This document shows positions 16,627-51,560 of a DNA stretch of 64,000 nucleotides, piece after piece; positions within the stretch are counted from its first letter, which is position 1; each line of letters begins with the position of its first letter. The DNA is taken from contig JAODTK010001599.1 in assembly GCA_026419785.1 (NCBI GenBank), positions 248,001 to 312,000 on the forward strand, read 5' to 3'. The stretch is from Sclerodactyla briareus. Lineage: Eukaryota > Echinodermata > Holothuroidea > Dendrochirotida > Sclerodactylidae. The notes beneath the pieces were generated by a model. It ran no database searches and had not been told where the DNA came from. It saw only the letters and a program-made list of their open reading frames with translations. Both the position numbers and the translations under genes were made by a program.

Positions 16627-17654
16627 ATCAGGATCATGTGGCGTAACTTCCTCACCTGAGCACACAATTGCAAGCTATCTTGCCGCGAGACATGTGTATA
16701 GTAAAGAAGAAGGTCCCACGACCTATGCTGGACATACAATTGATCTTTCTTGGTTCGGGGTTGTTTCCATAATTACCGTGACTGATATTCCGCTGCATTT
16801 GAATACTTGGAGTGGGGAAACGAGTCGGTGTTCCACGAATGAAACGGAGGCTATAGACTAACGCTTAAACCGAACTTTTACCCAATGAGCGATGGAACTA
16901 CCCGAAATCATGGATAGGGCTCTGGTCGGTGTGTTTTTCGCAAGGGTGGCCGCAAATAGGGCGGCGAGGTCATGACCCCAGCTTTTGGGATCCACCTATA
17001 GAATGATTTTTTCACCCACAAACCGTTTCCCATCACTGTTCGGACCCGCCGCCCCAAATTGCTCTGACCCCCCCCCCCAACTGTCGACCGTGGCTGCGCC
17101 CTTGTTGTAGTCCGCCACAAGCGTGACAAGGGGGGGAAGCCCCTCGACATTTGCAAGAAATCCGGTGGTACCTTCTTTTCTACAATGGCAGAAGAAGTGC
17201 GAACATAATATTAGCGAGTAACATAAAATGAAACCTCGTTTGAGGGCTTATCAGACCGAAAATTCAATACACTCAGAAAAGGAGGAGAATAAATCATTGT
17301 TAGATTATGCTTATTCCTCGTGTCATACGGATTGGATACAGCTGCACCAACATTTGAACAAAATTTTTTCCCACTGAAAAGAAAATGTTTCCCAGTGGAA
17401 GAGGACGTTTTGGTATTGAATGGTCAGCTCTGCAAAGCCTATCAGTAATACTTCAGTTATGAAGATATGAGATTACGATGTACTTCAAAAAAAAAAAAAT
17501 TTCGAATAATAGCGCTTCGATAATTTCAATAGGGGTGGCTTCTTCCACAAAATATTCATTCATAAAGATGATCAAACTAAAATAGAAATGAAGAAAATTG
17601 CCTGTTGATTATATATTGGGTCATAACGATAGAAAACATGGGTTATTTGAGCGC

Positions 17655-17850
17655 AGTGGCGAACCCAAGTGACCCATGAATTTCTAACGCAAACAACGAT
17701 TTTTGCCGTTCAGTAGAGGTTTCAGCTTTATTTAGCGAATATTGCCCATAAAGTTGGTTTACTCATGTGCCAATAGGGAGTTGAGGCCAGGACAGGCAGC
17801 ACTTCCTTGAGTTCCGAACCCCACCTCCCCCCTCCCACCCCCCCCCGATA
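17655..17850 (+). repeat. S-family interspersed repeat, copy in A1
   Basis: Starts near CAGTGGCGAACCCAAGTGACCC and contains TTCAGTAGAGGTTTCAGC, a GCCAATAGG block and CACTTCCTTGAGTTCCGA before a C-rich run. Matches 4262-4450 and 23455-23640. The CAGTGGCGAAC start resembles a hAT-type terminus. Confidence 0.6.
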
Positions 17851-20029
17851 CTCAGGCGAATCTCTCGATACGCGCCTGGTACATGGTTTAGCGATCTCTA
17901 TGCGGAACGATTGCTTTACGATCACGAATATTCGCTCGGGAAAGATAAATCGAAGTAACATATAGAAATAAGGAACAGTTTGCTGTAAGGCCATTGCGTA
18001 AGCTAACAAGTGACATCATTAGCGATATTTCATTGAAGGATTGCTACGACCACCAATATTATCTTGTTAAAGATATATCGAAATATTATAGGAATGAGAA
18101 CATGTTGTTGTTATCGAAATTGGGTCAAGAACGGTTCTCAACTCGAGATGTTCTGTATGACACCGCTTCTTCTGGCAATCGGTTGAAGCAAAAGAAAGAG
18201 AAATTAGTTCTCAATACTAAAGGATGAAAAAAAAGAAAGAAAATACAACAGGGCCGGGAATTGCCAGATAGACTATGGATTGAAACATGAATCTAATATG
18301 AAGGTAGACCTCTATATGTACATGGCGTATGGTGCATGGCTTCCAACAAGATGTATAGCCGACATAGGGGATTGGTGTATTGGGGGAACCCAAACATTTT
18401 CCGAGCGGTAAGTTTTGTGTTAAGGTGATTTTTCATTTATTAGGCCAATGATGATCGAAGGAAGAACGTGCCACTTGCGTTGTAGATGATTTGCTAACTG
18501 GTATTGCCTGTTATGATCTTGTTGAGTATCCAATAAAAATATACCGATTGTATGGTACATTCGGGTATCAATTCAAAACACAAAGCTCTGATAGCCTAAT
18601 TATTGACCATGCGGTCTACTTTCCGGACAGGGTTTCTGGTTATACTCTCTAGAGTAATTTGTCTCCTCTCAAGCACTTGGCCTCATGTTTATCGATATGT
18701 AAACAATACTGGCCAAGGTTACCTCTCACCACTCACACACTCACTCATGGAAGCACGTGCTGGGTAGGCACCTATAGTCGCCATCTCGATCGGCACTTCC
18801 GATGCCGTTGGATGGCTTTATCCGGGCAAGCAACGAGGCCTGGACCTGACATAGTTCTCTAAATCCGTGCGATAAAGAGGAACCGCGCCAATATAAGCTG
18901 CGGTGCACCCGAGGTTATTAGTCTAAGGTTTAGACCGATGTGCTTTTATTCGCCCTGGCATAGAGTATACACCTCGAGTGTTTTTACAAATGATCCGTGG
19001 TTGAAAACCCTCGGGTCGGGGTTATATACCATGGAATTTTGGATCTGCAGGTGCGGGAGGATTAGTTTTACCTTATGAACGTTCGAGGGTTTGCTGATGC
19101 AAGAGAGTTCATCGCTGGGCTTAACAAGACATACCCGCGGTCCGCCCCAACCCAACGGATCCCGTTCACACAGACACGATGGGCAGGACGTTGTCGGGAG
19201 GGGGCGCAATATACCCAAGAAAGAAAACGCAGTTGGGTGAGTGGGACGATCGCGAATAGGGAGCTCGACCCAAATTCTCGCCCCCCGAGAGCCTGGTATC
19301 AGAATCCGACCCTGACTAATTGAACCCAAGAGGCGACGAAACGAGGTAGTGAAACCACCTGTAAAAATTCATTCATTTTCCGCCAACACTGAACGCGCAC
19401 ACCCGGTGGTCGGTCCACTTCGGGAGAAAGAGAGAAAGCTGCAACCACCATGCTCAGCTAACAAGCTTCCTTGACAAAACAGGTAAAACGGGCATTCGCG
19501 TGAGTGAGAGATGTTCCAGAAACCAAACAGGGCCGCTGCCTCAAATCAGGCTGCTTGGAGACGACCGGTGCGCAGAGGTGGACGACACCTCGACACCCCC
19601 AGCAGAATTGAAGCGGCGCCCACCTCGAGGCCACGATGCCGGGTTCTCTCTTATATTAAGGGGCACTTTTCGTCTGGAAGACCTGGCGAACAAGCGACGG
19701 CGTCTTTTGCATGACGTCACGAGGAATAAACGCCTCAGTGCACTTCAGTAGCCTACCGTATTTAACAACTGCACTTGATTAGCATATTAGCGGGGAGGAT
19801 ATTGCAGGTTAACGTTGTAGTTATTGTTAATTGTACGTTTTCGCTTGTATTTTCGTCCCGGGGTTTTTGCGTTCCACGCTTTCGGTAGCTTCAATCGCAA
19901 CTCCCAAATCTTTTTACATTGATACTTGCTTTCGTAGACACAATTATTTAATGTTGTGACAATAGTGAACTAGCTCATTCAGAACCGCGGGGAGACAATT
20001 TGAGTGGGGGGGGGGCTAACCATGTCGGT

Positions 20030-20105
20030 GTCCCACCATCGAAGCGGAGCGCTACCATTGGTTGGCGCGGAGCGCACACGAAAACTTTCGTATGACAGAC
20101 CCCTC
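20030..20105 (+). repeat. T-family interspersed repeat, copy in A1
   Basis: GGAGCGCTACCATTGGTTGG followed by CGCGGA. The same block is at about 25827, 45938 and 46650, each followed by a G(A)CAGGAAA/GCCGGA-like stretch. Confidence 0.55.
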
Positions 20106-21037
20106 AGATCGCAGGAAAAGCTACCTTTCGTGCGTGTTCAGGCAGTAAACTGACAATCCTAAGATTGGATTCATGTCCACAACGTTTTTTTGTTCGCGAC
20201 AACGAACTCTTCTTACCAAGGGTAAATCAAGTAAAACTGCATCTAATAGATGAATGCTTGGAAAATTCATTATAAGGCCCCTACAAAAATAGAATATGCA
20301 CATTCGTATAGTAGGCCCGAACATAGCCCATTGAGGGGATTGGCGGAAAATATGTAATGGAAAAAAAATAGTGAAAACATACAAAATGATTGGGGGATGT
20401 GTGCCCGCAATAAAGTACGAAGGTGTCTGTCTCAAATCATAATCATAGGTATCACATCTAGTAAGTCCAAATCTCCAGCAAAAGGAGTTGTCTACACGGG
20501 ATCTCAATTGCCATTAGACGGAGCTGAGACGTCTATTCAGTCGAATTAACATTTGACGTTCCCTAGTTACCGCTATTGTCGAACCCACAGACAACGTCAG
20601 GAATTTACTAGCAGGGATTCCCTACTCCATTGTTATGTGTGTGGGAGGCCTACGACTTCATAACTTTTTGCAATTCCAGAGAGGTGGGTCAGATGTTTAT
20701 TTTACATCGAACCATAGCAATATATTGTGAACACCTTACAGAAGGCACGTAAAATGATAAAAAGTCACATACCCCCAGTAGGGCTTTCGTGTTTAAACGT
20801 TTTTTAATTTTAACGTTCACACGAATGTCCGCGCGTTTAAACGGACCAAATTCCTGTTAAACGGATCTTGTCCCTCGCCTGTTCTTCATTTTATCTTGCC
20901 CCGGACTAGAAACGGACTCTTTAACTTTACTCCATCTTCAATGAGCGCCAGTTGATCTTTCGTCTGGGGGTTGCCTGCCCAAACTCATTCCCGATGAGTC
21001 ACCGGGTGAGCCGGTCCCTGTTCGGTTTTTAATATTT

Positions 21038-21236
21038 TTATTGAAGGAGGCTAGACTGTGGAAACCCTCGTGCGTCCTGTTCTAAACGCAGCCACGTCCT
21101 TGATTCTCCTCGCGGTAGAATGACCTTTTCTTGTGGCAAACCCGTTGCAGGCCGACAATGCAGAAGCTTCAAATTGTTTATTACATGCGCAATCATCAGC
21201 CTTTCTTCTTCCGACAGCTTCTTGACTTCCATTCAA
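21038..21236 (-). other. Possible exon-like frame conserved in three noisy copies
   Basis: A minus-strand frame of 64 codons begins MEVKKLSEEERLMIAHV and continues to an Arg-rich tail (QEKVILPRGESRTW). The DNA block is kept in A2 (26830-27030) and A3 (32220-32420), but the frame is broken by indels there, with pieces such as KGHFYREE and TARR in other frames. I do not recognise the protein and see no convincing splice sites. Conservation of DNA across recent copies says nothing about coding. A chance frame is the more likely explanation. Confidence 0.2.
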
Positions 21237-23454
21237 GATTTCACTGCAACATTGTAGATTTTCAGGAGTTTGCCATCAGTACCCAATGATGCCAAGATGC
21301 GCGTTCAACAATGTATTTATTTCGATGTCTGCGGAGTCCGTATCTTGTTACAACACTGCCTTTCTGGTAAGTCATCCCTTATTGGAGCCTTGACCAGCAG
21401 GGACTCCATTTTTTTGCGATAGGGCAGTGCTGCAATTTTCTGGAGTTATCGTTGCAGAATCCTACGTATTGATTATTCTCTTCAATTTGCAGAGCTGTGA
21501 TTATCCGACAAGTCCAGAAAATTTCTCATTTTCATATTTATTTCTTGTAATACTTTGAAATTAGTTGGCTAAACATATATTTTTAACCTGCACAGGGCGG
21601 TGCACAAATTTAAGGCGGGCCCAAAATGCCGATGGCAGGCACGTGCGGGGGGCTAAACCCCCGCACCCAGGTTTTACGATAAGTGGGGGGCAGATTTGTC
21701 ATGGATGTCTGACCTGGGGGAGGGGTCTAAAAACTAAAGGGGAGGGGTTCCCCCTCCTCCTCTGCTGTTTTTTTGAGTCCCCATGACTACTGCTTAGATG
21801 CAAAATTGGACCTCACAAATTTGTCACTACCACAAGTTGTAGTGTCTTACGTCAACAGTTTGACAAAAACCATAAAATTAAAATGCAATTTTTCCAGGCA
21901 GGTCTATTTCATTCGATACACCTGAAAGAAAATAAACTCGATGAAACTTTACCTACGTTCTTTACAGGTAGGCATGCTTACTTTTTTAGGAAAAAAATGC
22001 TATGTATCGTATGCTCAGATGGTGGTAAAAAAAAATAAAAGCAAAATGGACCAGTTGTTTAGTTAATTATTCTGTATTTCCAAATAGAATCCCTCTAGGA
22101 AAATCAATTAAAAGCAGTCTCAATCAGAAAATCCACATTATATCAATTGCAAAAAAATGATATTTTTACTTCTTTACTCCTTCACCTCTTACTCCAAATG
22201 ACTCGTTTTGAAGACATCACCATAGTAATTCCTCCAAAATCCTATTTGGAGTAACTTTAAACACAATTTTTTAGAGTGTGCAATGCAACAAATTGGAGCA
22301 TTTCATACTTCAACGACACAGTGTTGGATAGTTATTGCTCTAACAAGAAACGCTGCGGCGCGACGCGCGGACGCGGCGGAACGCGGCGGAGACGTCGGCC
22401 CAAACGCATAATATCCCCGAATTGGGGATTAAATCATATCATGTGGGCTAACTTCATCACCTGAGCACACAATGGCAGCTAATATTGCCGCGGAGACTAG
22501 GTGGTATCGTAAGGAATCGGTCCCAAGACCTATACTGGGACATACAATTGATCGTCTTTGGTTCGGAGTTTTTTTCCATAATTTACCGGCGTTACGTGAT
22601 ATCGCTGCATTTTGAATCATGGCTTGATTGAACCGAGTCGGTGGTTCCCGACTGAAACTGATGCTATAGGACGACACTGCTTAAACGACCTTTAATACCA
22701 ATGAGCGATGAACTACCAAAAATTCATGGATAGGGCTCTGGTCGGTGTGTTTTGTAGTCCAGGGTGCAAGCAATATGGCGGTCCGAGGTCATGAACCCAC
22801 CTTTTGGGAATTCCAACCATATAGTCATGATTTTTTCACTACACAAACCGTTTCCCATCACTGTTCGGACCCGTCCCGCCCCAAATTGCTCTTGACTTCC
22901 GCCCCGGGCCCCCCCCAACTTTCAGACAGTGGCTGCGCGCCTTTTTGTAGGTCCGCCACAAGCGTCAAGGTGGAAGCCCCTCGACATTGCAAGAAAACGT
23001 GGTAACCTCTTCTACAATTCAGAAAATGGCGAACATTATATAACGAGTAACATAAAATGAAAACTCTTGTTGAGGGCTTATCAACCGCAAGCATACCACT
23101 CAGAAGAGAGAATAAAATCATTGTCACTTTATTTCTGATTCCTCTGTCATCGGATTGGCTACAGCTGCACAACACTAAACCACCTTTTTCCACTGAAAGA
23201 AATGTTTCCCAGTGGAGGACGTTTTGGATGTTAGGGTCAGCTCTGCAAGCCTATCAGTATATTCGTTATGCAAGAATTGAGATTACAATTACTTTCACTC
23301 TCAAATGTCCGATAATAGCGCTTCGCTTAATTTCAATAGCGGTGCTTCGTTTCCACAAATATCAGTTTCATTAAAGATAATCAACGAAAATAGAAATGAA
23401 GAAATTGCTGTTGATTATTATTGGGTCAACTAACGATAGAAACATGGTTTAGCG

Positions 23455-28706: not shown

Positions 28707-31672
28707 GCTCGCTCCAGCTGTTAATGTTAATTGTAACTAATTGACCATATCAAGTGACTTCAATACTACCTGTACACATGCGTTTGGAAACACACGTAAC
28801 TGTAATCATCGACCTAATTCTAATCCTAATACGCGAATTGTCCTTTATTCTGGGAACTAGTGTTTTTGTATCTAAAGGTCGCACTGTGTTGACAGATTTC
28901 CACTGAATATGCTACGTTCATGTATGGATCAATTTCAAACGAATGAGAGGTATACCGTTTTATTGTTTGCATATTCCCATCATAACTAACATATGCATGT
29001 CGGTTCAAAACCAGTTTTCGTCTGCTAAGTTGCTTTTAAACTTTCCTGCGAAAACCCCCGCTTCCTTTACCCTTCATCAGGTTCATTAACGTTTCATTTC
29101 TGTGGCACTTCATTGGCCTGATTGCCCGTCTCCTTTGTTACTACATTTTCATTTCAGTTTTCAGGGTTTCCATCCGTCTATGATGCGCTATAATGGACAT
29201 TCATGATGTTATATGAGCGTTTCTGGTAGTGTTCCATATGGGCCACTGATTTCTACAAAATTCCCTGCCCTTGCATGTGTGGTTTGGTTGCCGGTGTAGG
29301 AGTTACCTGGGGTTCACTGCCTGGTCTTAAGATACGACCACATGGAGAACTATTGTTTTTGTTTTTTTTTTCAACAGACACAGCCATGTGATGTGTCTCC
29401 ATATTTAACCTATCTACGTATCTACTCTTGGCGAGGTCCGCGGAAGACCATTACATAGCTTCATACTAAGTACACGCTACTTGGAGCGCAAGTACGTAAT
29501 CCACTCACAGAATGGAGATGCGTACTTTGGTTGGGACGCCGCTTGTGTGATTACCCTTCAACGTTCAAAGTCGCTAACTGACCGCGTACGGGCAGACTAT
29601 ATAAAATAGCAGGGCGTCTGACCTTTCGGCGGCCGAGGGGCGCCTGAAAGTAACATTTCCGAGACCGCATGCCAAATTGGAGACAACTGAGTTGTTGCCC
29701 CGGTCCACTCTGTCAGGAGAGGAGTGCCAACAGGCCCGAATTGTACGGACGTATATACGACCCCTGTGAAAATTAACCAGTGTACCGGCTCAATTGAAAA
29801 TGTCGCTGTTATCGAGATGTTCTAACTTTTTATTCGAGGTGTAAAAAAACCACCCTTCCCAAAAATTACACGAACAGATCGCTAACATACCGAATAATTT
29901 CTATTTATTTTTCCATGAGGTAGAGTCATTCATTTATGCTAGTTTAAACGCCTATGAAAAATGCCACATTAACGTAGCAAATAGGCACATACATTAAAGT
30001 GGACCTAGTGATCTAAATCAAGCGGGAGAATGAAGTCGGAGAGATAATAATCATGATAAACGCCCTGGGAACGATATTCCATTTTGAGAGTGATGTCAAA
30101 ATCGGTGTTGATATAGAGACCATATTTCTTGAAGCAGGGACTAGTGCAATGTCATCAAAAACCGCTTTTCGTTTGCCTGTTTACAATCCCACTGACCACC
30201 TAATCGCTACATGGACACTTATGGTCTTATCTCCTCTCTGTGTATATTGGTCATCATCACCAGGGGTAGATAATACCATTAACCTACCCCTAGGTTGTAA
30301 TATGTTGTTGTTTAGGTCAACATAATAGCAGTTATAGTACCACCAGGCAGCGTTACATGTCAGCACGGTTGTAATAGAAATTCGATGGAGGCTAGTTGTC
30401 CTGGTCTGGTGTTCTAAAGCGCACACCCTGATAAAGTCTCATTGCATCAAATGCTGAAGTAAAGAAGGAATAATAATCATAACACGTAATATGGACTGGA
30501 AATATTATTTAATAACTTTCAGGATAATTCCTACTTAGCCCATTCCTGTCATACAATATTATTCTAATTATAAGGCAGTCGCGAGAACGTGACCTTGCCC
30601 GTAGAAGGCTGAATCGTTGAATTCTCGATTCATATTCACTTGCAATTCGGGATCCAATCAGCTGGTCAAGATCTGTAATTTTTCCTACGATATCGTGGTT
30701 CGAACGAAAGTGGCGTTTACTGGCGGCGCGAGAACAAAATCACCAAAGTGCCAATTCGATATTAATACACAGGCAGGTCAGCGCCAGGATTTTTTTTTGG
30801 GGAAGGCATAGTCGAGATCTGATGACAATGTGGAGGATGGTTCTTCTTTTGGAAAATTTGAATTCCTGAAACTTCCTTGAAAGCGATCTGGTACCAAGTT
30901 CCCTTGTATTACAGCCATACCCTACCCCCCCTACAATGAAGTTTGCTCGAAATGCAATTTTCAAGCGAAATATTTTTTAGGTACAGTTATGATTATTGCA
31001 CACTGCCTCCTCCTCACCCTCCCCTCCCCCCCCCCCCCGCCCCTGTTAGACGCCGGCCATTGTAAACCAGGTTTCCATTCACAAAGTATTTCGTATATGA
31101 AGCATTTAAGCGAAATGGTGTCAAATTTCAATTGCGACATTCGGTGTTGACATCATGCAAACGCCCGACGGAGACCCTCCAACAAACGAGCCCGGGTCTC
31201 TTCGATGCTGGTGCCGAATATGACGTTCTTTAAAAGTCCTTTCAGTCTCAACTATCGAGAAAAAGACTTTAAAAACGAATATTGAAACTGAATGCCATCT
31301 TTCGACAACCTCGTCTACATAAAAACCTTCAGTCCAAATGACAGCACTCAGTCCATTCCTATTTTTTAGGCAGAAATGGGGAAAAATGGAAAATTTCAGT
31401 TGTGTTTTTAGCAGTCTTTCAGTTATGGACTACACCTACATAGCTGTGTCCTGGTTTCTCATCTCCTCAACTTATCACCTTGATGAGAGTGTCTACTAAC
31501 TGAGAACAGTCGTTGAATAATATTATAATAACACATATAATATAGGAATAATAATAATATTATAATCTAAAAAATTAAAAATTAAAAAATAATAATAACA
31601 ACTATACAATAACAACACAACATAATAATGTTAATAATAAGTATAATAATAGATATATTCGAGAAGATTATG

Positions 31673-31715
31673 AGTTGTACAGCAGACCCTTTTCGCCTTG
31701 ATGCGCGTCAGCAAC
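31673..31715 (-). ncRNA. Hammerhead ribozyme motif, minus strand, unit 1 (degraded)
   Basis: Read on the minus strand: helix I strand AGTTG, then CTGACGC (expected CTGANGA), a GC/GC helix II with ATCAAG between, GAAA, a lengthened helix III region, TA, then CAACT. Helix I is 5 bp and perfect. The core has one mismatch (C for A) and helix III carries extra bases, so activity is doubtful for this copy. Confidence 0.55.
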
Positions 31716-32020
31716 TATCGAAGCTCCACAGAATCGAAAAACGAAATCACAAAAGTCATAGGTCATAAACCGCACTTGAAACAAGGACGCCAGGTTTGTT
31801 GCTAGGCCCCGCGTCACAAGGGTACGCTCATGGCCGTAATCGGGATAGGTAATGCTTCCTTCTGTTCCTGTATGTAGAGTGAGTTCTGGAGCTTAGTTTA
31901 GGTTGTGTCTCTTTGTTGGCGGTTATCATGTACCCTCGCGTCCTTGGTTTTCGGGGAGTGTATCGTCGACCTAGTGACTTTTGTGATTTTTCGTCTTTTC
32001 GCTTTGTGTAGATTATGCTA

Positions 32021-32059
32021 TTTGCTGACGAGCCTTAGGGCGAAACAGTCCGTACAACT
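32021..32059 (+). ncRNA. Hammerhead ribozyme motif, plus strand, unit 1
   Basis: CTGACGA at 32025-32031, helix II GCC/GGC with loop TTAG, GAAA at 32042-32045, then helix III sequence ending in TA (32053-32054) and CAACT. All catalytic core bases are present. Helix I pairs only TTG with CAA, and helix III has a C in place of U, so folding is weaker than in the 40192 copy. Confidence 0.7.
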
Positions 32060-32204
32060 CATATCTTCCTCTGAATACACTACACTAGCTCCACCCGTTG
32101 ACCCTGTGTAGTTTTTTGAAGCAATTCCGTACTATTTAATACTAATACTATAATAATAAGAATAAAAAATAATAAATAATAAATAATAGCCGGTCCTTTC
32201 GTTT

Positions 32205-33435
32205 TTAGTGTTTTGAGGATGGCAGACTGTTTAAACGCCTCTGCGTCATTTTCGAACGCGCCACGTCTTTATCTCCTCGCGGTAAAAATGACCTTTCCAC
32301 AGGTTCCCTGTGGTCCCGTTTGCCGGACTGACATGCGAAGCTTGCAAATTGTTATTACATTCTGCATCATCAGCTTTTCTCCTTCCGCAGCTTCTTGGAC
32401 TTCATTCAAATTTCACTGCAACGGTTGATTTCAGAGTTTGCCATCATTACCCGAATGATGCCAAGATACGCGTCCAGCATATTTATTTCGATGTCTGCGG
32501 AGTACTATCTGCTACAAACTGCCTTTCCTGGTCCATATCCTCCTGATTCGCCGCCTTGACCAGAGGGCTTACTCCTTTTTGCGATAGGACAGTGCTGCAT
32601 TTCTGGATTATCGTAGGCAGAAGTCCTACGATTGATTATTCTTCAATTTGCAGAGCTGTTATTAGCCGAAAAGTCCAAAAATTGCTCCTTTCAATATCTA
32701 TTTTTTGGAATACTTGAAACTTATTGGCTAACTTATTTTTACCCAGTCACAGGCGGCCCAAATTTAGGCGGCCCAAATGAGCCGATGTCAGTCACAGTGC
32801 GTGGGCTTAAAGTCCCCCGCAGCCAGGTTTTACGATTAGGGGGGGGCAGATTTGTCCATGGTGTCTTACCTTGGGGGAGGGGTCTAGACAAGGGGAGGGG
32901 GTTCCCCTCCTCTCTGCTGTTTTTTAGTCTTATACGCCTATATTGCAAAATGGTGCCCATTTGATACACTTTGTACGTGTATCTACGTCAACGATTTTTA
33001 AAACCAAAAAGCCTAAAATTAAAATGCAATTTGTCCAGCAGTCTATTTCATGCATACACTGACAAAAATTAACTCGATGAAACTGTACATACGTTCTGTA
33101 AGGGCGGCAGGCTTACTTTGTTAGAAAAAAAATGCTAGTATCGTATCCTTAAGATGGTGGTAAAAAAATAAAAGCAGCAGACCCAGTTGTTAGTTAATAT
33201 TCTGTATTTCCAAATAGGAATCACTCTAGGAAAAGCAATTATAAGCCTCTCACTCATAATCCACATTAATATCAGCTGCAAAAAAATGGATATTTACTCC
33301 TTCAGCCGTACTCTAAATGATTTCGTTTTGAAGACAATCACCATAGTAATGTCCCCCACATCACTCATTTGGAGTAACTTTAAACACAATTTTAAGCGTA
33401 CAATGCAACAAATTGGCGCATTCATCTCCAACACC
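32205..33435 (+). repeat. Third copy of the A-unit tail (A3)
   Basis: Matches 21030-22312 and 26811-28190: CTCCTCGCGGTA block, CTTGCAAATTGTTATTACATT, ATTTATTTCGATGTCTGCG, the CGGGCCCAAA/GGCGGCCCAAAT block, the GGGGGAGGGGTCTA block, ATGCTA(T)GTATCGTA and TTTGGAGTAACTTTAAACA. It starts abruptly after the B1 microsatellite and runs straight into B2. Confidence 0.78.
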
Positions 33436-33639
33436 GACAACTAATAACGCCGCTCGTGCCTAGTCAAGGACAACTTAGTCCCCTTCTAGGCTCTCTTCTT
33501 CCCCTTTCCTTGTTTCAATCCCCAGTAAACGCCTACATTTGCGAACGCTATATACAGCAACAGTCTCGATTTGAGTCCGCTGAGAACGAATAGAAAATAA
33601 CCAGTTGTAATTTTTGACGCTCGGCTGCCCCGCCCCGAC

Positions 33640-33812
33640 AAAAACGTGGGCATTAAAACTTCATTCTGTCGATTTTTTTTTCTCGGCCCCAAACCCATGG
33701 GCCGCTCTCCCTGCCCCCCCCCCTCGCCCCCTGTGGCCCGTCCTTGATCTGAGTCTTCAATTTTCATTTCACCGGATCCGGGGGTACTTTCTGGATTAGA
33801 TTCGTCACACAT
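33640..33812 (-). other. Possible acidic/Gly-rich first-exon-like frame, copy in B2
   Basis: Minus strand, starting at an ATG at 33812 in an AAACGATG context: MCDESNPESTPGSGEMKIED, then SDQGRATGG, a Gly-rich stretch and ERPMGLGPR. The copy in B1 keeps PES-PGS, KMEDSD and the Gly run in shifted frames. An acidic, Ser/Pro-rich start followed by Gly is typical of disordered N-termini of nuclear proteins, but I do not recognise a family. No splice donor is secure. It could be a chance frame in a GC-rich patch. Confidence 0.25.
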
Positions 33813-36770
33813 CGTTTCCGCGCATGCCGCTCCGGCTTTAATAGGTATGGTACTAATTGACCATTCAATGCCGTCATACTCCTTTAACACATGCTTCGGA
33901 AACACACGTAACTGTAATCACATCGACCTAATGTCTTTAACTACCTAATAACGCGAATTGGTCTTTATATGGTAACTATTGTTTGTATCTAAGGTCTGCC
34001 TGTAGTTGACGAGTTCCACGAAATCTACGTTCATGTATGGTAACATTCAAACGAATGCGGAGGTTAACCGTTTTATGTTTGACTATTCCCACAAACTAAC
34101 CATATGCATGTTGTTCCAAACCAGTTTCGCTAATATCTTTTAACTTTCCGTGCGAACCCCCGCTCCTGTACCTTAATCAGTTAATTTAACTGTTCATTGC
34201 TGTGGCACTTCATTGGCATGATTCCCTTCTCCTTTGTTACTACATTTACATTTCAGGTTAGTTTCCATCTCGTCTTATGCGCTATATTGGACTTCATTTG
34301 TTTATGAGAGTTCGTGGAGTTCCTATGGACACTATGTTTCTACAATTCGCGCTCCCTTGCATGGTGGTTTGGGTGCGGTGATAGTAGTATACCTGATTCA
34401 CTCGCCTGTCGTAAGATACGACAAAAGGGAGAACTAGGTGTTGTTTTTTTTTTTCAGAAGAACACAGCATGTTTTGATGTGTCGTCATTTTAAACCGTCT
34501 ACGTATACTACTCTTGGCGAGTCCGCGAAGAAACTTCTCATAGCTTCATAGCTAAGTCAACCGACTACTTTGGAGCGCAAGTACGTACATCACTCACAGA
34601 AGTGGATATGCGATACTTTGGGACGCCAGCTTGTGTGATTTTACCTTCAAACGTGCAAAGCCGCTAACTGACGCGTACTGGCAGACTAGAGAAAATTAGC
34701 AAGGCGTCTGACATTTTTGGGCGACGAGGGCAGCCTGAAGTACATTTCTAGACCACCATGCCCAAATTGAGGACCAACTGAGTTGTTCCCCGGTCACTCT
34801 GGGCTATTGGCAGAGGGCGTGTCCAAGCAGCCCGAATATGGTACGACGTATATACACCCCTGTAAAATTAACCGTGTACCTGGCCAATTGACAAGGCGCT
34901 GTTTAGATCGAGATGTTATACTTTTTATTTCGCGGGACAGACCAACCCTTCCCAAAAATTACACGAATCAGATCGCTACATACCGAATATACTTTCTATT
35001 TATTTTTCCTGATGTATTCGGCCAATTCTTCTGCTGTTTATAACGCCTATAAAATAATGACGACATTAGCGTATCAAATAGTCACATACTGAGCGTAGGG
35101 ACCTATGTGACTAAATTCTCCAGCTTGAGAATTTGAATTCCGAGAGATATATCTCAGATAACCCCTGGTAGAACTGTTATTCCACTTTGAGAGTGATGTC
35201 AAAATCGGTGTTTATAGGAGACGCTATTCTTTGAAGAAGGACTAGTGTCAATGGCATCAAAACCGCTTTTCGTTTTCCTGTTTACATATCCCACTGACCA
35301 CCTAATCGCTCATGGACCCTTTGGTCTTATCTTCATCTCTGTGTATATGAGGTTATCATCCCAGTAGATAATACCTACCGAAAAAAACCCTATGGTTGTA
35401 ATAATAGTTTTGTTTAGTCACATAATAGCATATGCCCACCATCCAGCGTTACAAATGTCAGCACAGTTGTAAGTAGAATCTGATGGAGGTCGTTTGTCCT
35501 GGTCGTGGTGTGCGAAAGCGCCCCCCTGATGAATTCGCTCAGTCCGTCCATGCTGAAGTAAATAACATTATAATAACCCGTATATGGACTGGAAATATTT
35601 AATAACTTTCAAGTATAATCCTATTAGTCATTTCTGTCAGTACACTATTATTCTAATATAAGGCGTCGAGGGAGAACGGACTTGCCCGATAAGGGCTGAA
35701 TCGTTTTATTCTCGAATTCATATTCACATTGCAAATCGGTCAGAATCAGCTGGGGTCAACTGACTGGTTTATTTTTCTTACGATACGTGGTTCGAACGAG
35801 AGTGGCGTTTACATGGCGTCGCGAGAAAAATCACCAAGTGCAAATTCGTATATATACACGGCAGGTCCGGCCATGCTTTCCTTGGTTGGGGGAGGGCATA
35901 TCCGAGATAGGATGACGAATGTGGAGGAAGGGTCTGTCTTTGGAAACTATTTGAATTCTGAAACTCCTTGAGCAAGCGATTCTGGGTATCCAATTTCCTT
36001 CCCCGTGTATTTACACATACCCTACCCCCTAGAAAATGAAGTTTGCTCGAAGGCATATGTCAAGCGAAATGATTTTTTAGGATAAAGTTATGATTAGGTG
36101 GCACTACTCCTCCTGCTCACCTCCCCTCCCCCCACCCCCCCCCCGCCCCTGCCCTCTGTGACAGCCGCCATTGGTTAAACGTTTTTCCCATTCACAAGTA
36201 TGTCGTAATATGAATCAGTTTAAGCGAAATGGATGTCAATTCAACGGCGCTATTCGGTGTTGACATCATGCAAACGCCACGACGACACGACAGCAAAACC
36301 AAGCACGCCTCTTCGATGCTGGTGGACGAATCTACGTTCTTTAAAGTTACTTCTCTTCAAAATATTCGAGAAAAGGCTTTAACGATATTGGAACTGATCC
36401 ATCGTTCGACCCCTCGTCTACATAAAAAACTTCAGTCAAAATTACAGCACTCAGTCATTTTCTATTTTGAGAAAAATGTGGAAAAATGGAACACGTTCAG
36501 CTTGTGTTTAAGCAGTCTTCAGTTATGGACTACACCCTACAATAGCTGTGTCCTGTTCTCATCTCTCAACTGATCACCTTGAGGAGAGGTCTACTAAAAT
36601 GGAGAACTTCTTTGAAATAATAATTATATAAAAATAATAATAGTAATACTAATTAATAATTATAATCTAAAAAATATAAAATTAAAATAATAATAACAAC
36701 GATAACATAACAACAACAACAATATAATGTTAAATTATTAAATCATAGATATATTCACACAATGAGTTTG

Positions 36771-36809
36771 ATTGTACAGACTGTTTCGCCCTGATGCTCG
36801 TCAGCAACT
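36771..36809 (-). ncRNA. Hammerhead ribozyme motif, minus strand, unit 2
   Basis: On the minus strand: AGTTG, CTGACGA (36804-36798), helix II GC/GC region with ATCA loop, GAAA (36787-36784), short helix III ACA/TGT with a 3-base loop, TA (36776-36775) and CAAT. All core bases match the consensus (CTGANGA, GAAA, TH). Helix I pairs TTG with CAA plus a G-U pair. Predicted cleavage on the minus strand is between 36775 and 36774. Confidence 0.78.
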
Positions 36810-37115
36810 AGCGGAATCTACACGAAAGCGAAAAAAGAAATCCAAAATCAATAGGTCGTCTACGCTCACGTTGAAAAACCAGACGCGCGTGTTTTGTTGC
36901 TAGGGCCCGCGTCACAAGTGGACTCTCACCTTATTCGTAAGAGGAAGGTGCTTCCTTCGTGCCTGTTTGTAGAGCATGAGTCTGATCTGATTTAGGTCTG
37001 TTTCTTTCTCTTGTTGGCTGTTATCATGTACCCTGCGCGTCCTTGGTTTTCAAATGAGCGTATCAACCTATTGACTTTTGTGTTTTGGTCTTTTCGGCTT
37101 TGTGTAGATTATGCT

Positions 37116-37152
37116 AGTTCGGACGAGCCTGCGGCGAAACAGTCTGTACACT
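37116..37152 (+). ncRNA. Hammerhead ribozyme motif, plus strand, unit 2 (core damaged)
   Basis: AGTTC then GGACGA in place of GCTGACGA; GCC/GGC helix II with loop TGC; GAAA; CAGTCTG; TA; CACT. The CTGA part of the core has lost or changed bases, consistent with read-type error or decay. The partner of the minus-strand motif at 36771-36809. Confidence 0.55.
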
Positions 37153-37596
37153 CAAATCTTCCTCTGAATACTCTACCAAGCTCCCCCGTTGAGCACTCTG
37201 TGGAGTGTTTTGAAGCATTCCCGAACTATTTAATAATAATTACTAGATATTAATAATATATAATAATAATAATAATTATACTCTAATAATAATCAACGAC
37301 GAACATCAGATCATATGTCGCAGGCTTTCAAGTATGGACTACAACGCCTACAATAGCTTGCCTGGTTTCCCCATCTCTCACGTATCACCTTGAGAAAGAG
37401 TCTACTAAAATGGTAACATTCTTTGAATAATAATTATACTAAAAACTAATAAGAGTAATGATAATAATTATAATATAAAAAATATAAAAATTAAAAAACC
37501 TAAAAAACCTTTCACAAAATATTAAAAAACACAAAAACCATAATAATAAAAAAATTAATATAATTAGAATAATAGATATATTCAGAGAAAGATGAT

Positions 37597-37636
37597 ATTG
37601 TACAGACTGTTTCGCCTTGAGGCTCGTCAGCCAACT
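37597..37636 (-). ncRNA. Hammerhead ribozyme motif, minus strand, unit 3
   Basis: On the minus strand: AGTTGG, CTGACGA (37630-37624), helix II GCC/GGC with loop TCAA, GAAA (37613-37610), ACA/TGT helix III with a 3-base loop, TA (37602-37601) and CAAT. The core is complete and helix II is perfect. One extra G next to the core interrupts helix I. Confidence 0.75.
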
Positions 37637-37939
37637 ACGGAATCTACACAGAAGCGAAAAAACACGAAAATCGGCAAAGTCATAGTCGATACGTCTCCTT
37701 GAAAACCAGGACGCGCAGGGTTGTTCTAGGGCCCGGCGTCACAAGGGGACCTCACCGTATCGACAGAGGAGGTGCTTTCCTTCTGTGCCTGTATGTAGAG
37801 ATGAGTTTTTCTAATCTGGATTTAGTTTTGTTTCTTTGTTGCTGTTATCATGTACCCGTCGCGCCGTGTTTTCGAGTGAGTGTATCGACCTCTTGATTTT
37901 GGATTTTTTCGTCTTTTCGCTTTTGTTGTGTAATTATGC

Positions 37940-37976
37940 TATTGCTGACGGAGCCTAGGGGCACAGTCTGACAACT
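37940..37976 (+). ncRNA. Hammerhead ribozyme motif, plus strand, unit 3 (degraded)
   Basis: TATTG, CTGACGG with the A displaced by one base, GCC/GGC helix II with loop TAGG, then CACAGTCTG and ACAACT. GAAA is shortened and the T of the cleavage triplet is missing. Recognisable by position and flanks but not expected to be active as written. Confidence 0.55.
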
Positions 37977-38413
37977 CATACTCTTCCTCTGAATAATCTA
38001 CCTAGCTGCACCCGTTGAGCCCTCTTGTTGTTTTTTGAAGCATTCCGTGACTATTTAATAAATAATAATAATAATAATATATAATACTAATAATTAATAA
38101 TAATATAATAAATAATAATAATCAACGACGAACATCAAGTCATATTTTAGACAGTCTTTCAAGTTTTGGACTACACCCTACAATAGCTGTGTCCTGGTTT
38201 CTCATCTCTCAACTTTATCACCTTAGAAAGAGGTCCTACCTAAAATGAGGAACATTCGTTGAATACTCTTATCCTAAAATCATAATAGTAATAATAATAG
38301 AGTATAATATAAAAAATATAAAACAAGTAAAATAATATCACCACCGATACAAATAACACAACAACAAATAAGTTAATAATAATTATAAGCATCGATATAT
38401 TCGAGAAAGATTA

Positions 38414-38456
38414 GAGTTTGTAACAGCTGTTTTCGCCTTGAGGCTCGTCAGCCAAC
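38414..38456 (-). ncRNA. Hammerhead ribozyme motif, minus strand, unit 4
   Basis: On the minus strand: AGTTGG, CTGACGA, GCC/GGC helix II with loop TCAA, GAAAA, CAGCTGT, TA and CAAACTC. The core is present with one extra A after GAAA. Its plus-strand partner lies beyond the 1.42 kb insertion, at 40192-40231. Confidence 0.65.
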
Positions 38457-38770
38457 TAGCGAGAATCTACACAGAATCGAAAAAGAAAATCACAACAGCA
38501 ACTAGGTTGATACGCTCATTTGAAAACCAAGGACGCGCAGGGTTTTGTTGCTAGGGCCCGCGTCACAAGGGGACCCTTCATCCGTATTCGGAGAGGAGGT
38601 GCTTCCTTCGTGCCGCGCCTTAAGTAAGATGAGTTCCTGATCTGATTTAGGGTTTGTTTCTTTTGGTTGGCTTTTATCATTACCCTGCGCGTCCCGTGGT
38701 TTCAATGAGTGTATCGACCTATTGACTTTTGTGTTTTTCCGTCTTTCGCTTTTTGGTGTAGATGATGCTA

Positions 38771-38950
38771 CAATCCGTCGGCAAAAATCCCTGGACACAC
38801 CCGTCCCCCATCATGTTGCTGCATCCTGCTACACTACCACAACTTGATTGCGGGGAAGGGGTTTATTGCTTTTCGAGGGAATGTTCAGCACTAAAATCCA
38901 CCTGAACATAATATTTTCACTGTTTGTCCCCACCGTTTTTGCGAGGATTG
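38771..38950 (+). repeat. Left ~180 bp terminal direct repeat of the insertion
   Basis: Shares ordered blocks with 40008-40190: CAAAAAT-CC, CATCATGTTG, ATCCTGCTACAC, GGGTTTATTG, TCAGCACTAAAAT, ATATTTTCACTGTTT and GCGAGGATTG. Confidence 0.68.
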
Positions 38951-40007
38951 TCCGAGCCCTGTACAAATATATTCCAGAGCATGATAATTTCGTTCAGCGG
39001 TATTAGTTTGGATTGTTTGAACTGCTGCGTGGCGCTTTTTCAGGAACGGTCGACAATTTTATCGAAAGGTTAGTTTTTGGGTGGATTGCTTTACGAAATC
39101 TGAAGCCGGTGCGAGTAAGCCTGAAACTCTGTAAGGAGCCGCACCGATGGGGGGGGTCCCCATATTTTTTTACAACTTATTTGTGAAGAAAAAAATGTCC
39201 CCATTAAAAATCACTCAATTCCTTGAATACACGTTCGCAGCGGGTTTGTTCTTGTCGGTAGCTGGGGGTCCTCCTTTTGTCTGTCCCCCTCCCTATTTTC
39301 GAATGCTGGCCCGGTTCTGCCCCCATACCTCTTTGACTCAGTGGAAATCCTCTATGCGTATGTGAACCCACAATGTCCAAACATTTCCGTTTGCCAGTTA
39401 CGGCTAATGTATCCGTTATCATTATAGTTATTTACAGATCCAAAACCTGCTATTTGTGGCATTCTCGCTCCTTGTAGGTCAGTGAGCCTCACGGTCACCA
39501 CGGCGAACACACTCTTTGAATGGAGGTGACGTGTCGCCATAAAAATAAAGAAGCAATCTTCGGGAATGATCCATCTCTTCTTAAATCATGGCCTACCGAT
39601 TTAAAAGAATGGGGATAATAGAAATTATCATTTCGAGAAAGTACTGAACTGTGTTATATAATTTATTCAGTCCGAAACAATTGAAATGCATGCAAATAGT
39701 CCATTTCAGCTTTAAACGAGCAAATTGGCGTGGCTGACGTGCGGCTTAGCGCATCAATTCGCAATTAGAACTACATACGGAACTCCTCGCATTATTCATA
39801 ATATCCCCCGCAGTAACGCACACTACAAGTGACTATGGTGTAATGCCATACTTATGAACATAATATAATCTCAGCCCCCCCTCTCAATATACTTCACGCC
39901 CCTAACCCCCTACCCCCACCCAAGTTCAAAACGAACCCGATTGCCGCTGACAATCCTGTGCTAAACGAGTACATTCGCTGTCCCTTCATAGGACAGGGCT
40001 CGGGACA

Positions 40008-40190
40008 TCCGCAAAAATACCTGTACAACCCGCTCCCCCGATCATGTTGATGTCATCCTGCTACACGACCACCACATTATTGCGTGGGATGGGTTTATTG
40101 ATTTGTCGGAAGGGGGGAATGTCAGCACTAAAATACCAAATGAACAATACATATTTTCACTGTTTAGTCCCAACCTTTGTGCGAGGATTG
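40008..40190 (+). repeat. Right ~180 bp terminal direct repeat of the insertion
   Basis: Matches 38771-38950 with indels and ends at the same GCGAGGATTG, directly abutting the resumed satellite. Confidence 0.68.
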
Positions 40191-40373
40191 TAGTTGCTGA
40201 CGAGCCTTGGGGCGAAACAGTCTGTACAACTCATACTATTCCTCTGAATACATCTACATAGCTCACCCGTTAAGCACTCTGTGTAGTTTTTTGAAGCAAT
40301 TCGGACTATTTAATAATAATAATAATAATAATTAATAATAATAATAAGAAGAATCATAATAATACTAATAAGA

Positions 40374-40421
<48 letters not shown>

Positions 40422-40445
40422 CAACGACGGACATCAGAGAGATCA
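40191..40445 (+). repeat. Satellite resumes: last partial unit
   Basis: Contains the plus-strand hammerhead, the CCTCTGAATACATCTACATAG block, TTTTTTGAAGCAATTCGG and a long AAT microsatellite (40310-40425), then CAACGACGGACATCA, the same end as the other units. Confidence 0.78.
40192..40231 (+). ncRNA. Hammerhead ribozyme, plus strand, best-preserved copy
   Basis: Helix I AGTTG (40192-40196) pairs perfectly with CAACT (40227-40231). Core CTGACGA is at 40197-40203. Helix II GCC (40204-40206) pairs with GGC (40211-40213) around loop TTGG. GAAA is at 40214-40217. Helix III is short: ACA/TGT with a 3-base loop. The cleavage triplet GTA ends at 40226. Every base of the catalytic core agrees with the hammerhead consensus (CTGANGA, GAAA, TH). 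A very short helix III is characteristic of hammerheads in Penelope-like elements and retrozymes. Predicted products end at 40226 and start at 40227. Confidence 0.85.
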
Positions 40446-41989
40446 TATTATAGGTAAGCCTTATAGGGCTATATATTATATAAGACAGGAAAATTGAATC
40501 GCGAACGCCTCAGGTGGAGAACTTTTATAATAAATCTCAAGCTTCTCCCTAAGGTGGAAGAAGTCGGGTGTCGGACACAGTACCCCAGCCTCCCTTTTGA
40601 GTAATACAAAACTGTATAGCCATAATCGTTCACTCTTCAACTAACTTGTGCATTAATGGCATGCACAGTCTATAAAAGCATAATTTTACCCATCACTTCG
40701 TGTTGTATAAAATTTTCCTCTCGGCATGGCAGTTAGTAGTTTTAGTACGGATGCATATGGTCGAGAGAACATACGTTTCTCACCGTTACTGCTGAGATAG
40801 AGATTGAATATTGAGTGATTGCCTTTACTAATTGTCTTACCCCATTAAATAAAATGAGGATATATATGGATATGTTATTTTGTACGGGGCTATTCAATGT
40901 ATAAAGAGTCAAAATATGATGAAAAGAAAGCCTAGATAGGGCTGGGTTGTGATATGCCCAAAAATATCAGCGCAAATAGAACGAAACAAACTCACAGAAG
41001 TGTGGTGGCATGGATAACATTTCGATTGGATCTTGGCCTTTATGTGGATGTTACCAGGTGGCATTTTAGACGACATCAGAAACCATATTTAAATATAACT
41101 CTAACTGCTTTCCAGTTTTTGATTTGACCGCTGTTGACCTCAGATGGTCACGTGACCAACAAACTGTACTTTGCTGATTGTGGTAACAACACATAGAAAC
41201 GAAGGAGTTTGCTTATTGGGTAGGGTAACTGATCGAGCAAACAAACACGCAAACGAACATGAAAGTAACACTCCCGACGGAAATGATTATTTCCATGGTT
41301 TATTTTGCGATATCTTCAATTCAAATTTCCCACTCCTCCCCCTAAGGGGGGAGCGTACCACCACCCAGGAAATACCGTTCATCCCTGATTGGGACTCTTA
41401 ACCAAAACCTTGGTTCCAGTAAAGTTACCAAGACGGATCAATCGATAGTTGTCGTACTCCCGTACTCCCTCCCCATTGATGCGAATGAAGTCATATTTAG
41501 CGTGGTACGAATATGGTCTTCTTTCCTCGATGTCATATGCGTAACAACTCGTCATCTTCGCTGGTTGGTTCGTCAGGGTGTATACTTCTCGTTTCCTTCC
41601 CTACCCAGAATTCGCCAGAAAGAGTGCCGACCCTTCCTTGTAGCTTTCCTCCCAGTTCGGTCAAATCCAGAGGCGAGACGAACTTGGGATTCGACGTTAG
41701 ATTACCTGAAAACAACATACAAACAGATGACCTATGGTCTCCTCCTAACTGTCTAATACCAACTGAATAAGGAACATACTGCGACACATTTATCTAAATC
41801 AAATTATGTCTTGGAAATTATTTCCTCTCCATTTATTGCATTCAGATTGATTATAAGGTGCATAATACACACACAACATTACGACGCATCGTTTGCATAT
41901 CGTTATAAATCCGGTGTATAAATCGTTATTATCGGTGTATATTTTAAGGGGATAACACTGCAACCTGGAGACTTTTTACTGGTGAATCA
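40446..41989. other. No gene recognised
   Basis: Overlapping frames at 41502-41787 on both strands lie in a slightly GC-richer patch but show no domain or splice support. The rest is AT-rich. Confidence 0.4.
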
Positions 41990-49500: not shown

Positions 49501-49688
49501 AGTTAATGTTTTTATACGATGATTAAACTAATTTTAATAACGATTCCGGCTTTTCAGATGATACTCTTAAGTATGGGTTCCACTGAATTGTATCCCCTGT
49601 GCTAAAGGTACCTCCCATTCTCCAACCCACAAGAGAGACACTAAGAGAGATGGTGATGGCCCCGGGCCTAGGCGGAGATGTAATGAAA

Positions 49689-50185
49689 ATAATCTACTTG
49701 TAGGTTTTCCCAATATCAATCGCCTTCGTAACAAAGTTGAGCAACTGCAGGCATTGCTACCCGGGGATGATTCAGATTTCCAGATTTTTGGCCTAAGTGA
49801 AGCATTCTTGAATTGGATGAATCTTCCAATGTCACTGAGTTTAGCATACCGGGGTTATAGTGGCAACGCAAGGATAGGAGAGGCAAACAGGGGGATGGGG
49901 TAGCTGTCTATGTCAAACACGACACCCCATGCGTTAGACGAAGTGATTACGGATTGATTGCATAGAAGCCCTCTGTCTTGAATTCCCCTTACGACACCTA
50001 AAGAACTTCTCCTTTGTTGGCGTATGTACCGCTCCCCAGGACTCGAATGCGGAATGGCTTACAAAGTTTCATGGAATGATGAGCAACATCAGACGCTCAA
50101 AATTAAATATTGTAATGGTGGGTGATTCTGGAATAAACCTGATGAATGGAGAAAAAGAATGGTTACAAGAAATGGATCTGTAGGC
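49689..50185 (+). pseudogene. LINE APE endonuclease remnant
   Basis: The catalytic Glu context GLSEAFLN corresponds to the family GLSETWLN, and VMVGDSGINL to VVGDFNINL, so both acidic landmarks are recognisable. The final S-D-H motif is not clear; PIDHL at about 50248 may be its neighbourhood. Several frame changes. Confidence 0.6.
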
Positions 50186-50699
50186 CTGTCACAAATACTG
50201 GGGGTTACCAACTCGTGAAACCGATAATTCCTTCTTACGTCCCCATCGATCATTTATGACAAATGAATGACGTGTAAAACCAGCTCTCTGTAACCCGTCA
50301 AATTAAAATAAGTACCACTTCCAATAGTTTCACACTGGCCGCATGTAGTATGACAACTAACGAATGACGTCACATGAATCAATAATATTGAAAAACAAGT
50401 AAGATTAATGAATATAATTTAATGATGACCTAAGGCAACGACTCAACGCTACCCCTAATGTTCTTAGCGGAAGTGATCCAAACGAAAACCTACAAGCCTG
50501 GGAACATATATTTATTGGAACCCTAAATAGGCACGCTCCAATGAAAGAAAAAAGAATCAAGAAAAAAACCCAACCCGATTGGTTTAATGGAGAAATTGAT
50601 GACGCCATAAAGAAAAGGAACAAAGCAAAATTTTGTGAGCCTTGTATGTATGCTCAATATCGAAATAAGGTTAACAGTAGTATACAGGACACAGTATTA

Positions 50700-51560
50700 T
50701 TATTAGTATATTAACGACATGGGTCAGGCTTTGAATATAGTATGTGCGATATGTATGCTGATGATTCTACCTTTTACCCTGTTGGAAAAAAAACATATGG
50801 AATAAATTTAAGTGACAAATGATATGAATGGTATTAGCACATGGTGTAATGTAAGACGATAAAATGGTAAACGAATTATGACAAAACTTGATGAAACCAT
50901 CGTTAGTTAGGATCACAGCAAAGATTATAAAATCTGAACGGTCGATTAGCAATCAGTAGATGGATGCCAACTTAAAAAAACACAGAGGGTGAGAAACTTT
51001 GGGGAATACATGTTGACCTAACCACTATCTGGAATGCAATTATCGTAGTAGTATCTTGTGAAAGTTATTAATTATAGTGGAATAGCATTGTTAAGAAGAA
51101 TAAAGCCATTCCTTTATATTGATGCTTGTCTGTATTACACAAAGATTATATCCTACCAATTATTGATAACTGCAGTGCTGTATGGGGCACATGTAACAAG
51201 GAGAATTTGCAAAGAGTATTCTGATGCAAAAATCAGCAGCGAGAGTTTTACGTGATGAGCGCTATTTACAGCTTAGCTCCGCATCTATGTTTGATCCTCT
51301 TAATTGGGAAACCATAGACGTGCGCATTAGAAAAGGACCAATATTTACTATTCTTATACAAGTGTTTAAATGGCTGGGCTCTGACATATCTGACACAATC
51401 ATTTCAATTTACAAAGGACACCTACTCATATGGATTACGGTCTTCCACAACTAACGGCTTGTTTATTGAAGGTGGGAAAACGGATTATCACGAACGAAGT
51501 TCCTCCTACAAAGCAACTTCATGATTGGACAGTTACCAAACGAATGTAGAGAGGCCAGAT
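50700..51560 (+). pseudogene. LINE reverse transcriptase remnant, second half
   Basis: The catalytic YADD box is present as MYADDSTFY (one frame change before it). Downstream are GIHVDL, KPFLYIDACLYYTK, a NCSAVWGT motif and QKSAARVLRDERY, all standard in the C-terminal part of CR1/L2/jockey-type ORF2. The N-terminal half of the domain was lost at a junction near 50697. Confidence 0.65.

Follow-up and report, generated by a model that had tools for sequence, protein, structure and literature searches.

Opposed hammerhead motifs in a Sclerodactyla briareus tandem repeat as probable head-to-head ends of a Penelope-like retrotransposon

We analysed a stretch of 64,000 nucleotides from Sclerodactyla briareus (GenBank assembly GCA_026419785.1, contig JAODTK010001599.1, positions 248,001 to 312,000 of the forward strand; hereafter the window, numbered from its first letter), in which a tandem repeat carries hammerhead motifs on both strands. 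The best explanation, to which we assign a probability of about 0.85, is that each opposed pair of motifs marks where two 3' ends of one Penelope-like element (PLE), each truncated on its 5' side, meet head to head; this element is a retrotransposon with a minimal type I hammerhead in its pseudo-long terminal repeat (pLTR). A preliminary description of this DNA had seen in the symmetrical pair an unusual satellite design with inverted termini; instead, its arms correspond to truncated ends of a dispersed PLE-like element, and such pairs are found at nine other loci. We observe dispersed truncated copies, head-to-head pairs, the combination of two end types (A and B) within these pairs, mostly AT-rich flanks and amplification in tandem, seen in the window and to a minor extent on contig C3043. 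On this explanation the opposed hammerheads are present because they are part of the element end, not because a satellite requires two of them.

Dispersed copies and paired ends

The assembly (319 Mb, 3,171 contigs) was searched with window positions 36,700-37,600, which gives at least 87 matches (40 of the 135 candidates were scored). Units of the window itself are counted here, as are many TAA tracts that stand alone. Twenty loci were fetched; these were picked by similarity to the window unit and so give no unbiased estimate of how frequent pairs are among the copies. At ten of them (L009-L014, L017, L019, L020 and L022) the match stops at window position 37,029/37,030 and one element is present, made up of a 5' part, an arm, the hammerhead and the 3' end. 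L016 has no match to the query, and L027 and L028 have AT-rich matches only. Long copies extend further upstream, from the 5' part into the end of an open reading frame (ORF), so that the order is ORF end, arm, hammerhead and 3' end. The same hammerhead is present in dispersed, 5'-truncated copies of one retroelement. TAA or TA tracts adjoin most ends inspected (the second copy of L011 is one of the exceptions), in agreement with the insertion of PLEs into AT-rich DNA.

The upstream ORF suggests an identity for the element. At L009 one frame upstream of the arm reads ITWRIRRHARPYSPRTKRCNICLWEKYYMITANKEITLNTRSELISTCRHRRKHLL, eight stretches further upstream contain pieces such as RKRNITWFNPPYSQHVETNIGRNFLRLVNDHFPQTHQLHKI and CNCRQKVNCPLPGNCNTSNVIYETTVVTPNNEKIYIGL, and pieces at other loci read KRNITWFNPPYSQHVETNIGRNFLRLVNDHFPQ and CNCR..CPLPGNC..VIYETTVV..YIGL. 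We take the pieces from these eight stretches to be, probably, the linker and the GIY-YIG start of PLEs. Of 19 candidates, 15 are relatives of a 126-residue piece with KRNITWFNPPYSQHVETNIGRNFLRLVNDHFPQ, all at E 4e-11 or lower, and two of these relatives carry the precomputed family PF26215. Both motifs are held by one relative, P0003, which the second piece (the C-rich stretch with VIY..YIGL) matches at 54% over 54 residues. Judged by their translations, the upstream pieces look like the C-terminal part of a PLE protein. Nothing relevant was returned by a PDB sequence search with two of the ORF pieces.

Paired ends are likewise spread over the genome. A pattern of the 3' part, ATAATCTTTCTCTGAATATATCTA, allowing at most 2 mismatches, occurs at 22 places in the whole genome (11 per strand; none for the reversed control). 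Within the full set of loci fetched at this stage, the 3' motif with at most 5 edits is found at 44 places (6 on the window contig; 3 of low complexity, which were dropped). Among the remaining 35 places, on 22 contigs, 14 make seven head-to-head pairs with 26-92 bp between the motifs; the only tail-to-tail pair in this sample lies between two tandem copies at C3043. C1127 provides an additional pair, and at C2775 and C3065 the partners are legible though without a clear motif. Head-to-head loci thus number ten: C144, C1127, C1468, C2117, C2775, C2807, C3034, C3043, C3065 and the window. These agree with the inverted pLTRs of PLEs, as tested for head-to-head order only. Among the nine pairs outside the window, a tandem copy is seen only at C3043, within the stretch fetched. 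This locus (L021, C3043:76,180-76,560) is an independent tandem duplication of a head-to-head pair with a period of about 203-214 bp; its plus arm retains the hammerhead and its minus arm starts inside stem III.

The two arms of a pair differ in their 3' ends. End A runs ...ATATCTA and is usually followed by an AT-rich tract, and end B is an extension of ~57 bp, CC(A/T)TAGCTCCACCCGTTGAGCACTCTGTGTAGTTTTTTGAAGCAATT... One A arm and one B arm are combined at all ten head-to-head loci; the chance of this is about 5e-5 if A and B occur in the proportion tallied by hand for single copies (15 A, 5 B), and 1e-3 at even odds. Seven of the nine outside B arms were assigned by script (C1127 in the second script) and two by eye (C2775, C3065), while the C2117 minus arm is B in the first script and one 8-mer short in the second. 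Of the plus-strand arms in the window (R; the minus-strand arms are called L), two are B in the first script and R2 is found by neither; R4 is undecided in the first script, A in the second and B by eye.

These pairs probably arose when the element protein cut both strands of AT-rich DNA and reverse-transcribed two RNAs towards each other, with site A as the start for one and site B for the other. After such bidirectional target-primed reverse transcription the two cDNA ends would be joined head to head, and the 0.82-kb satellite of the window would follow from ordinary tandem duplication of the joined pair. The same element might also have formed the joint by self-priming, in which one template or cDNA folds back on itself, and not by two reverse transcription starts on the two target strands. 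This was proposed for rotifer PLEs from palindromes at inverted junctions (PMC3846280; here and below, papers are cited from excerpts), and palindrome-like junctions are visible by eye at C1468 and C3065. Fold-back, however, predicts the same end type on both arms, whereas the arms differ at every one of the ten loci, and ~40 bp of filler lies between the arms at C3034; self-priming thus seems unlikely, if far from negligible. Palindromic or overlapping junctions between the arms are seen at C144 (L051), C1468 (L024) and C3065 (L058), and these could separate self-priming from end joining.

Hammerhead motifs and the tandem array in the window

The preliminary description had listed eight hammerhead motifs in four minus/plus pairs. 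These are related to one another and are recovered at the same places, and the repeat unit is supported as having hammerheads, of the minimal type I, on each strand. The motifs are L1 (31673..31712, minus strand; core damaged by indels and mismatches, limits approximate), R1 (32019..32057, plus), L2 (36772..36811, minus), R2 (37117..37151, plus; one core letter different), L3 (37598..37638, minus), R3 (37940..37975, plus; GAAA lost, perhaps by sequence error, limits approximate), L4 (38418..38456, minus) and R4 (40189..40229, plus). R4 (the 40,197 copy) reads GTTG-CTGACGA-GCC(TTGG)GGC-GAA-ACA(GTC)TGT-A^CAAC and is, by its predicted pairing, a minimal type I hammerhead in which stems II and III have 3 bp each, with the predicted cut between 40226 and 40227. 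Of the eight copies it alone passes a strict descriptor (core, three stems and cleavage triplet); L3 and L4 (the minus-strand copies at 37597 and 38414) pass with the core and stems II and III and fail in stem I only. Since this descriptor finds R4 and has 0 matches in 100 Markov-simulated sequences of window length, the motifs are not attributed to chance. The descriptor is also passed by one copy each in L012, L014, L021 and L022 (among the 20 loci). The element accordingly resembles PLEs in having a minimal type I hammerhead in its pLTR, by the strict descriptor and below Rfam gathering scores. Its near self-complementary stem III, ACAGUCUGU, would likely lead to a dimer. Patterns of the hammerhead have no match in viral and prokaryotic contigs, neither collection being meant for such a genome. 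A permissive Rfam search of eight loci returned mostly microRNA-type hairpin families, several of them on inverted repeats, which we judged to be chance.

Positions 31,000-41,400 of the window were read throughout. Self-comparison of the window shows a mosaic tandem of the form P S P S Q+t1 S Q+t2 t3 t4, with a P block at 16,494-21,008, an S block at 21,009-22,314, and block ends at 32,188 (Q+t1), 37,292 (Q+t2), 38,122 (t3) and 40,421 (t4). Every t unit contains one minus-strand hammerhead (L) and one plus-strand hammerhead (R). The unit of ~0.82 kb given in the preliminary description holds for t2 (36507..37292), t3 (37293..38122) and t4 (38123..40421, broken by an insertion), which form a tandem array of that period. 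The first pair does not belong to it: t1 (31406..32188) lies outside this array, one 5.4-kb tandem unit upstream, and is the terminal part of such a unit, composed of flank, an AT-rich stretch, L1 as minus-strand element end, R1 as plus-strand element end and a TAA tract. In t2 the L element (36746..37030, minus) is a PLE-like 3' end that begins ~250 nt before the cleavage site and finishes with end type A, and its 5' part matches the terminus of the endonuclease-like ORF in dispersed copies. The R element (37030..37225, plus) is a shorter 5'-truncated end with the hammerhead and end type B, whose extension follows the hammerhead (type assigned by eye).

The inverted repeat formed by each pair is larger than the ~38 bp first described: its arms measure ~140-165 bp around a centre of ~140 bp. 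When 38,398-38,543 is compared with inverted 37,030-37,170, the match is 83% over 152 columns, equal to that between direct copies. Such nearly symmetrical arms might indicate a terminal-inverted-repeat DNA transposon (a miniature inverted-repeat transposable element, MITE) with a hammerhead in its termini by chance. This is scarcely credible given that many loci hold an arm on its own, with a 5' end that varies, that inner ends vary between loci and that the outer ends are A on one side and B on the other at all ten loci.

For the 446-nt t2 core, the RNA of each strand is predicted to fold into a rod, with z -9.2 and -12.2, in which each hammerhead is paired with the complement of the other and both lie inside one long duplex. 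Because the predicted arm-to-arm duplex buries both motifs, the hammerheads would not be free in such a two-arm transcript, and double-sided self-cleavage appears doubtful; the proposal that either strand self-cleaves to unit length becomes, on this model, less likely. This bears on the idea of an ambisense viroid-like or retrozyme-like satellite, both strands of which would cleave at both hammerheads, circularise and be copied back as tandem DNA. Hammerheads on both strands, head-to-tail 0.82-kb units and the long rod predicted for both RNA strands would all fit. Animal retrozymes do make tandem repeats and circular RNAs (PMC7229834), and they share with the window a type I hammerhead within eukaryotic tandem repeats; the discussion in that paper allows circles of 150 to over 1000 nt. 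Retrozymes are nonetheless short non-coding units of about 170-400 nt with one hammerhead (PMC7229834), in contrast to 820 bp with two opposed hammerheads and an ORF end, though size alone does not exclude them. Furthermore, the arms occur separately elsewhere with different truncation points, so that as a pair they do not form a conserved unit. This reading is also opposed by the burial of both motifs, even though blocked hammerheads are reported for plant retrozymes and viroids as well (PMC7229834). Ambisense viroid-like RNAs and the carnation retroviroid-like element are alike in carrying hammerheads on both polarities, facing each other in a rod fold, whereas the window unit is known from DNA alone and owes its symmetry to two element copies. 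Overall, a satellite of this kind is improbable.

The sequence of the window is noisy. Comparison of its long repeats gives 11-15% gap columns and 7.5-10% mismatches, and since the differences are this rich in indels, uncorrected long-read sequence (an unpolished contig) is suggested. Defects in single motif copies are therefore poor evidence of decay, and coding calls on the window contig are unreliable. Given this noise, it might be argued that the pairs are assembly or read artefacts (missed-adapter palindromes of raw long reads). The arms, however, differ consistently: loop II is TCAA or TCAG on L and TTAG or TTGG on the two readable R copies, and the internal loop of stem I differs as well, with undamaged core letters identical (by eye). 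The four pairs also stand in direct order with a unique centre, and pairs with different inner ends are present on nine other contigs, which makes an artefact very improbable.

Several results weigh against the PLE reading. None of the copies examined has an intact ORF. In Pfam searches, ten ORF pieces give no reverse transcriptase, no GIY-YIG domain and nothing credible, and ten of the 15 relatives (E <= 0.01) give no PF26215, reverse transcriptase or GIY-YIG, with weak chance-like hits only; the PLE name is based on unnamed relatives and on motifs familiar from PLEs. The flanks are AT microsatellites in which target-site duplications are not distinguishable by eye. In addition, self-priming gives head-to-head joints too (PMC3846280). 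For the hammerhead itself, a covariance search with Rfam, proposed in the preliminary description as a check, yields none at gathering score in the window or in 20 related loci; best sub-threshold scores overall are 18-22 bits, including 40,167-40,231 (21.4 bits), 40,185-40,223 (18.6) and 37,595-37,636 on the minus strand (18.1). Six short single-copy pieces fold no better than shuffles. Nor does the comparison of core with spacer, likewise put forward as a check, come out in favour of the motifs: within the window the hammerhead footprints are no better conserved than the rest of the unit. Pairwise identity is 69% in the L footprints and 77% in the R footprints, while the other unit parts range over 62-85%; sequence noise renders this comparison uninformative and prevents a decision.

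As to the remaining features, the insertion of 1.4 kb noted earlier within the last pair is confirmed (38769..40190) and splits stem I of R4. By eye its ends are CAATCC...GGATTG with TA on each side, and its termini are direct repeats of ~180 bp (38778-38951 and 40008-40191); it looks like a TA-targeting DNA transposon, or like two MITE copies around 1 kb. The region 16494-37292 contains two distinct tandem duplications of ~5.8 and ~5.4 kb, which have the 1.3-kb block S in common. Pfam gave no credible domain for the stop-free pieces searched, of which 72 come from the tandem region at 16.4-37.3 kb (where the best E is 0.04) and 32 from the remaining window. Both negatives are weak, because a by-eye reverse transcriptase-like piece of a long interspersed nuclear element (LINE) at 60.6 kb was missed as well. 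By eye, pieces of LINE endonuclease and reverse transcriptase are seen at 49571-50714 and 60613-61026, and Pfam missed both, perhaps through noise.

Inner ends and the predicted cleavage site

To place the inner (5') ends of the arms, positions are counted from the C after GUA at the predicted cut (+1), with an accuracy of a few bases. Scripted extension against real copies gives 34 rows, 32 of them outside the window contig. The set considered here consists of 22 inner ends outside the window that fall within -37..+7, with the C3043 copies merged; C2991 minus (internal deletion), C2051 and longer copies were left out. Ten of the 22 lie at -2..+7 (both arms at C1127, C2117, C2807 and C3034, and two C3165 insertions), with C3034 at +1 and -1. 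Six lie at -37..-34, which is the 5' edge of the hammerhead, and six elsewhere. Under a uniform null over -40..+7, P is 0.004 for the cluster at the site and 0.009 for that at the edge. The extension probe is blind beyond +7 and missed 13 rows of an earlier scripted table, including C2302 minus (-22) and C3131 (-63); adding C2302 minus changes the count at the site to 10/23 (P 0.007). A first by-eye count of inner ends (9/21, P 0.0003) is superseded by this scripted measure.

As a tentative reading, some PLE insertions may have been templated by RNAs already cut at the hammerhead: two 3' fragments would be reverse-transcribed on the two strands of one break, with starts A and B, and the inner ends would record cleavage in vivo. 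The window pair would then be a longer, uncut variant that kept both hammerheads and subsequently became a satellite. In the window three recovered L copies start at -252 and two R copies at -125, and this pair was thus not made from hammerhead-cut RNA. Two observations weaken the cut-site reading. Because the ends within a pair are not independent, one end was counted per insertion, and this lowers the clustering to 6 of 16 insertions with an end at the site (P 0.07). Moreover, the minus partner at C2775 starts at about +26 (by eye), well downstream. Matches that start downstream of +10 are also present at C2247 (a rearranged copy) and C3065 (a damaged copy). As a partial control, 0 of 87 matches begin within the B extension, from +10 to its end. 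Stalling of reverse transcriptase on the folded hammerhead is a possible alternative cause of the clustering.

L020 (C2051) and L010 (C2991) share -252 as their 5' breakpoint and resemble each other in the letters that precede it (GTTGTAGAA); the window L copies have this breakpoint too.

Relation to known elements and meaning

Hammerheads in PLE ends are known (PMC7761336, PMC6155905, PMC6431247), and in PLE inserts of the rotifer Adineta vaga the pLTRs are inverted, mostly in head-to-head order, and one of the two may carry a tail (PMC3846280). The Penelope elements of this rotifer resemble the present one in their 5'-truncated copies and in the inverted, mostly head-to-head terminal repeats. 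They differ in that the ends here stand alone without an ORF in between, that A and B ends are combined at 10/10 loci and that a pair has here turned into a tandem repeat of 0.82 kb. On AT-rich DNA a purified PLE protein can cut either strand and extend it, and it has two reverse transcription start sites between which the tail lies (PMC11167929); in the excerpts of that study the start site is no different between the strands, and hammerhead cleavage is dispensable for insertion in vitro. The Poseidon element from Anolis studied there is alike in its terminal minimal type I hammerhead, its AT-rich targets and its two 3' ends differing by a tail. That study reports no RNA reads that start or stop at the hammerhead cut, in contrast to the genomic copies here, some of which start at or near the cut.

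The head-to-head arrangement is therefore already described for such elements, and the feature in the window belongs to a known kind; the hammerhead copies are opposed because the pLTRs are inverted. Opposed hammerhead pairs as such were not found described in the literature, which was covered in part and without Cervera and de la Pena 2014 and Lunse 2017.

These results remove the claim of a new double-ribozyme satellite and show how such a unit can originate from an ordinary retroelement. They also bear on what the hammerhead of PLEs does. Should the rule that an A end is combined with a B end prove general, it would limit the ways in which the strands of a target can be used. If confirmed in more copies, starts at the cut site would be a fossil record of cleavage, which could be tested in any PLE-rich genome.

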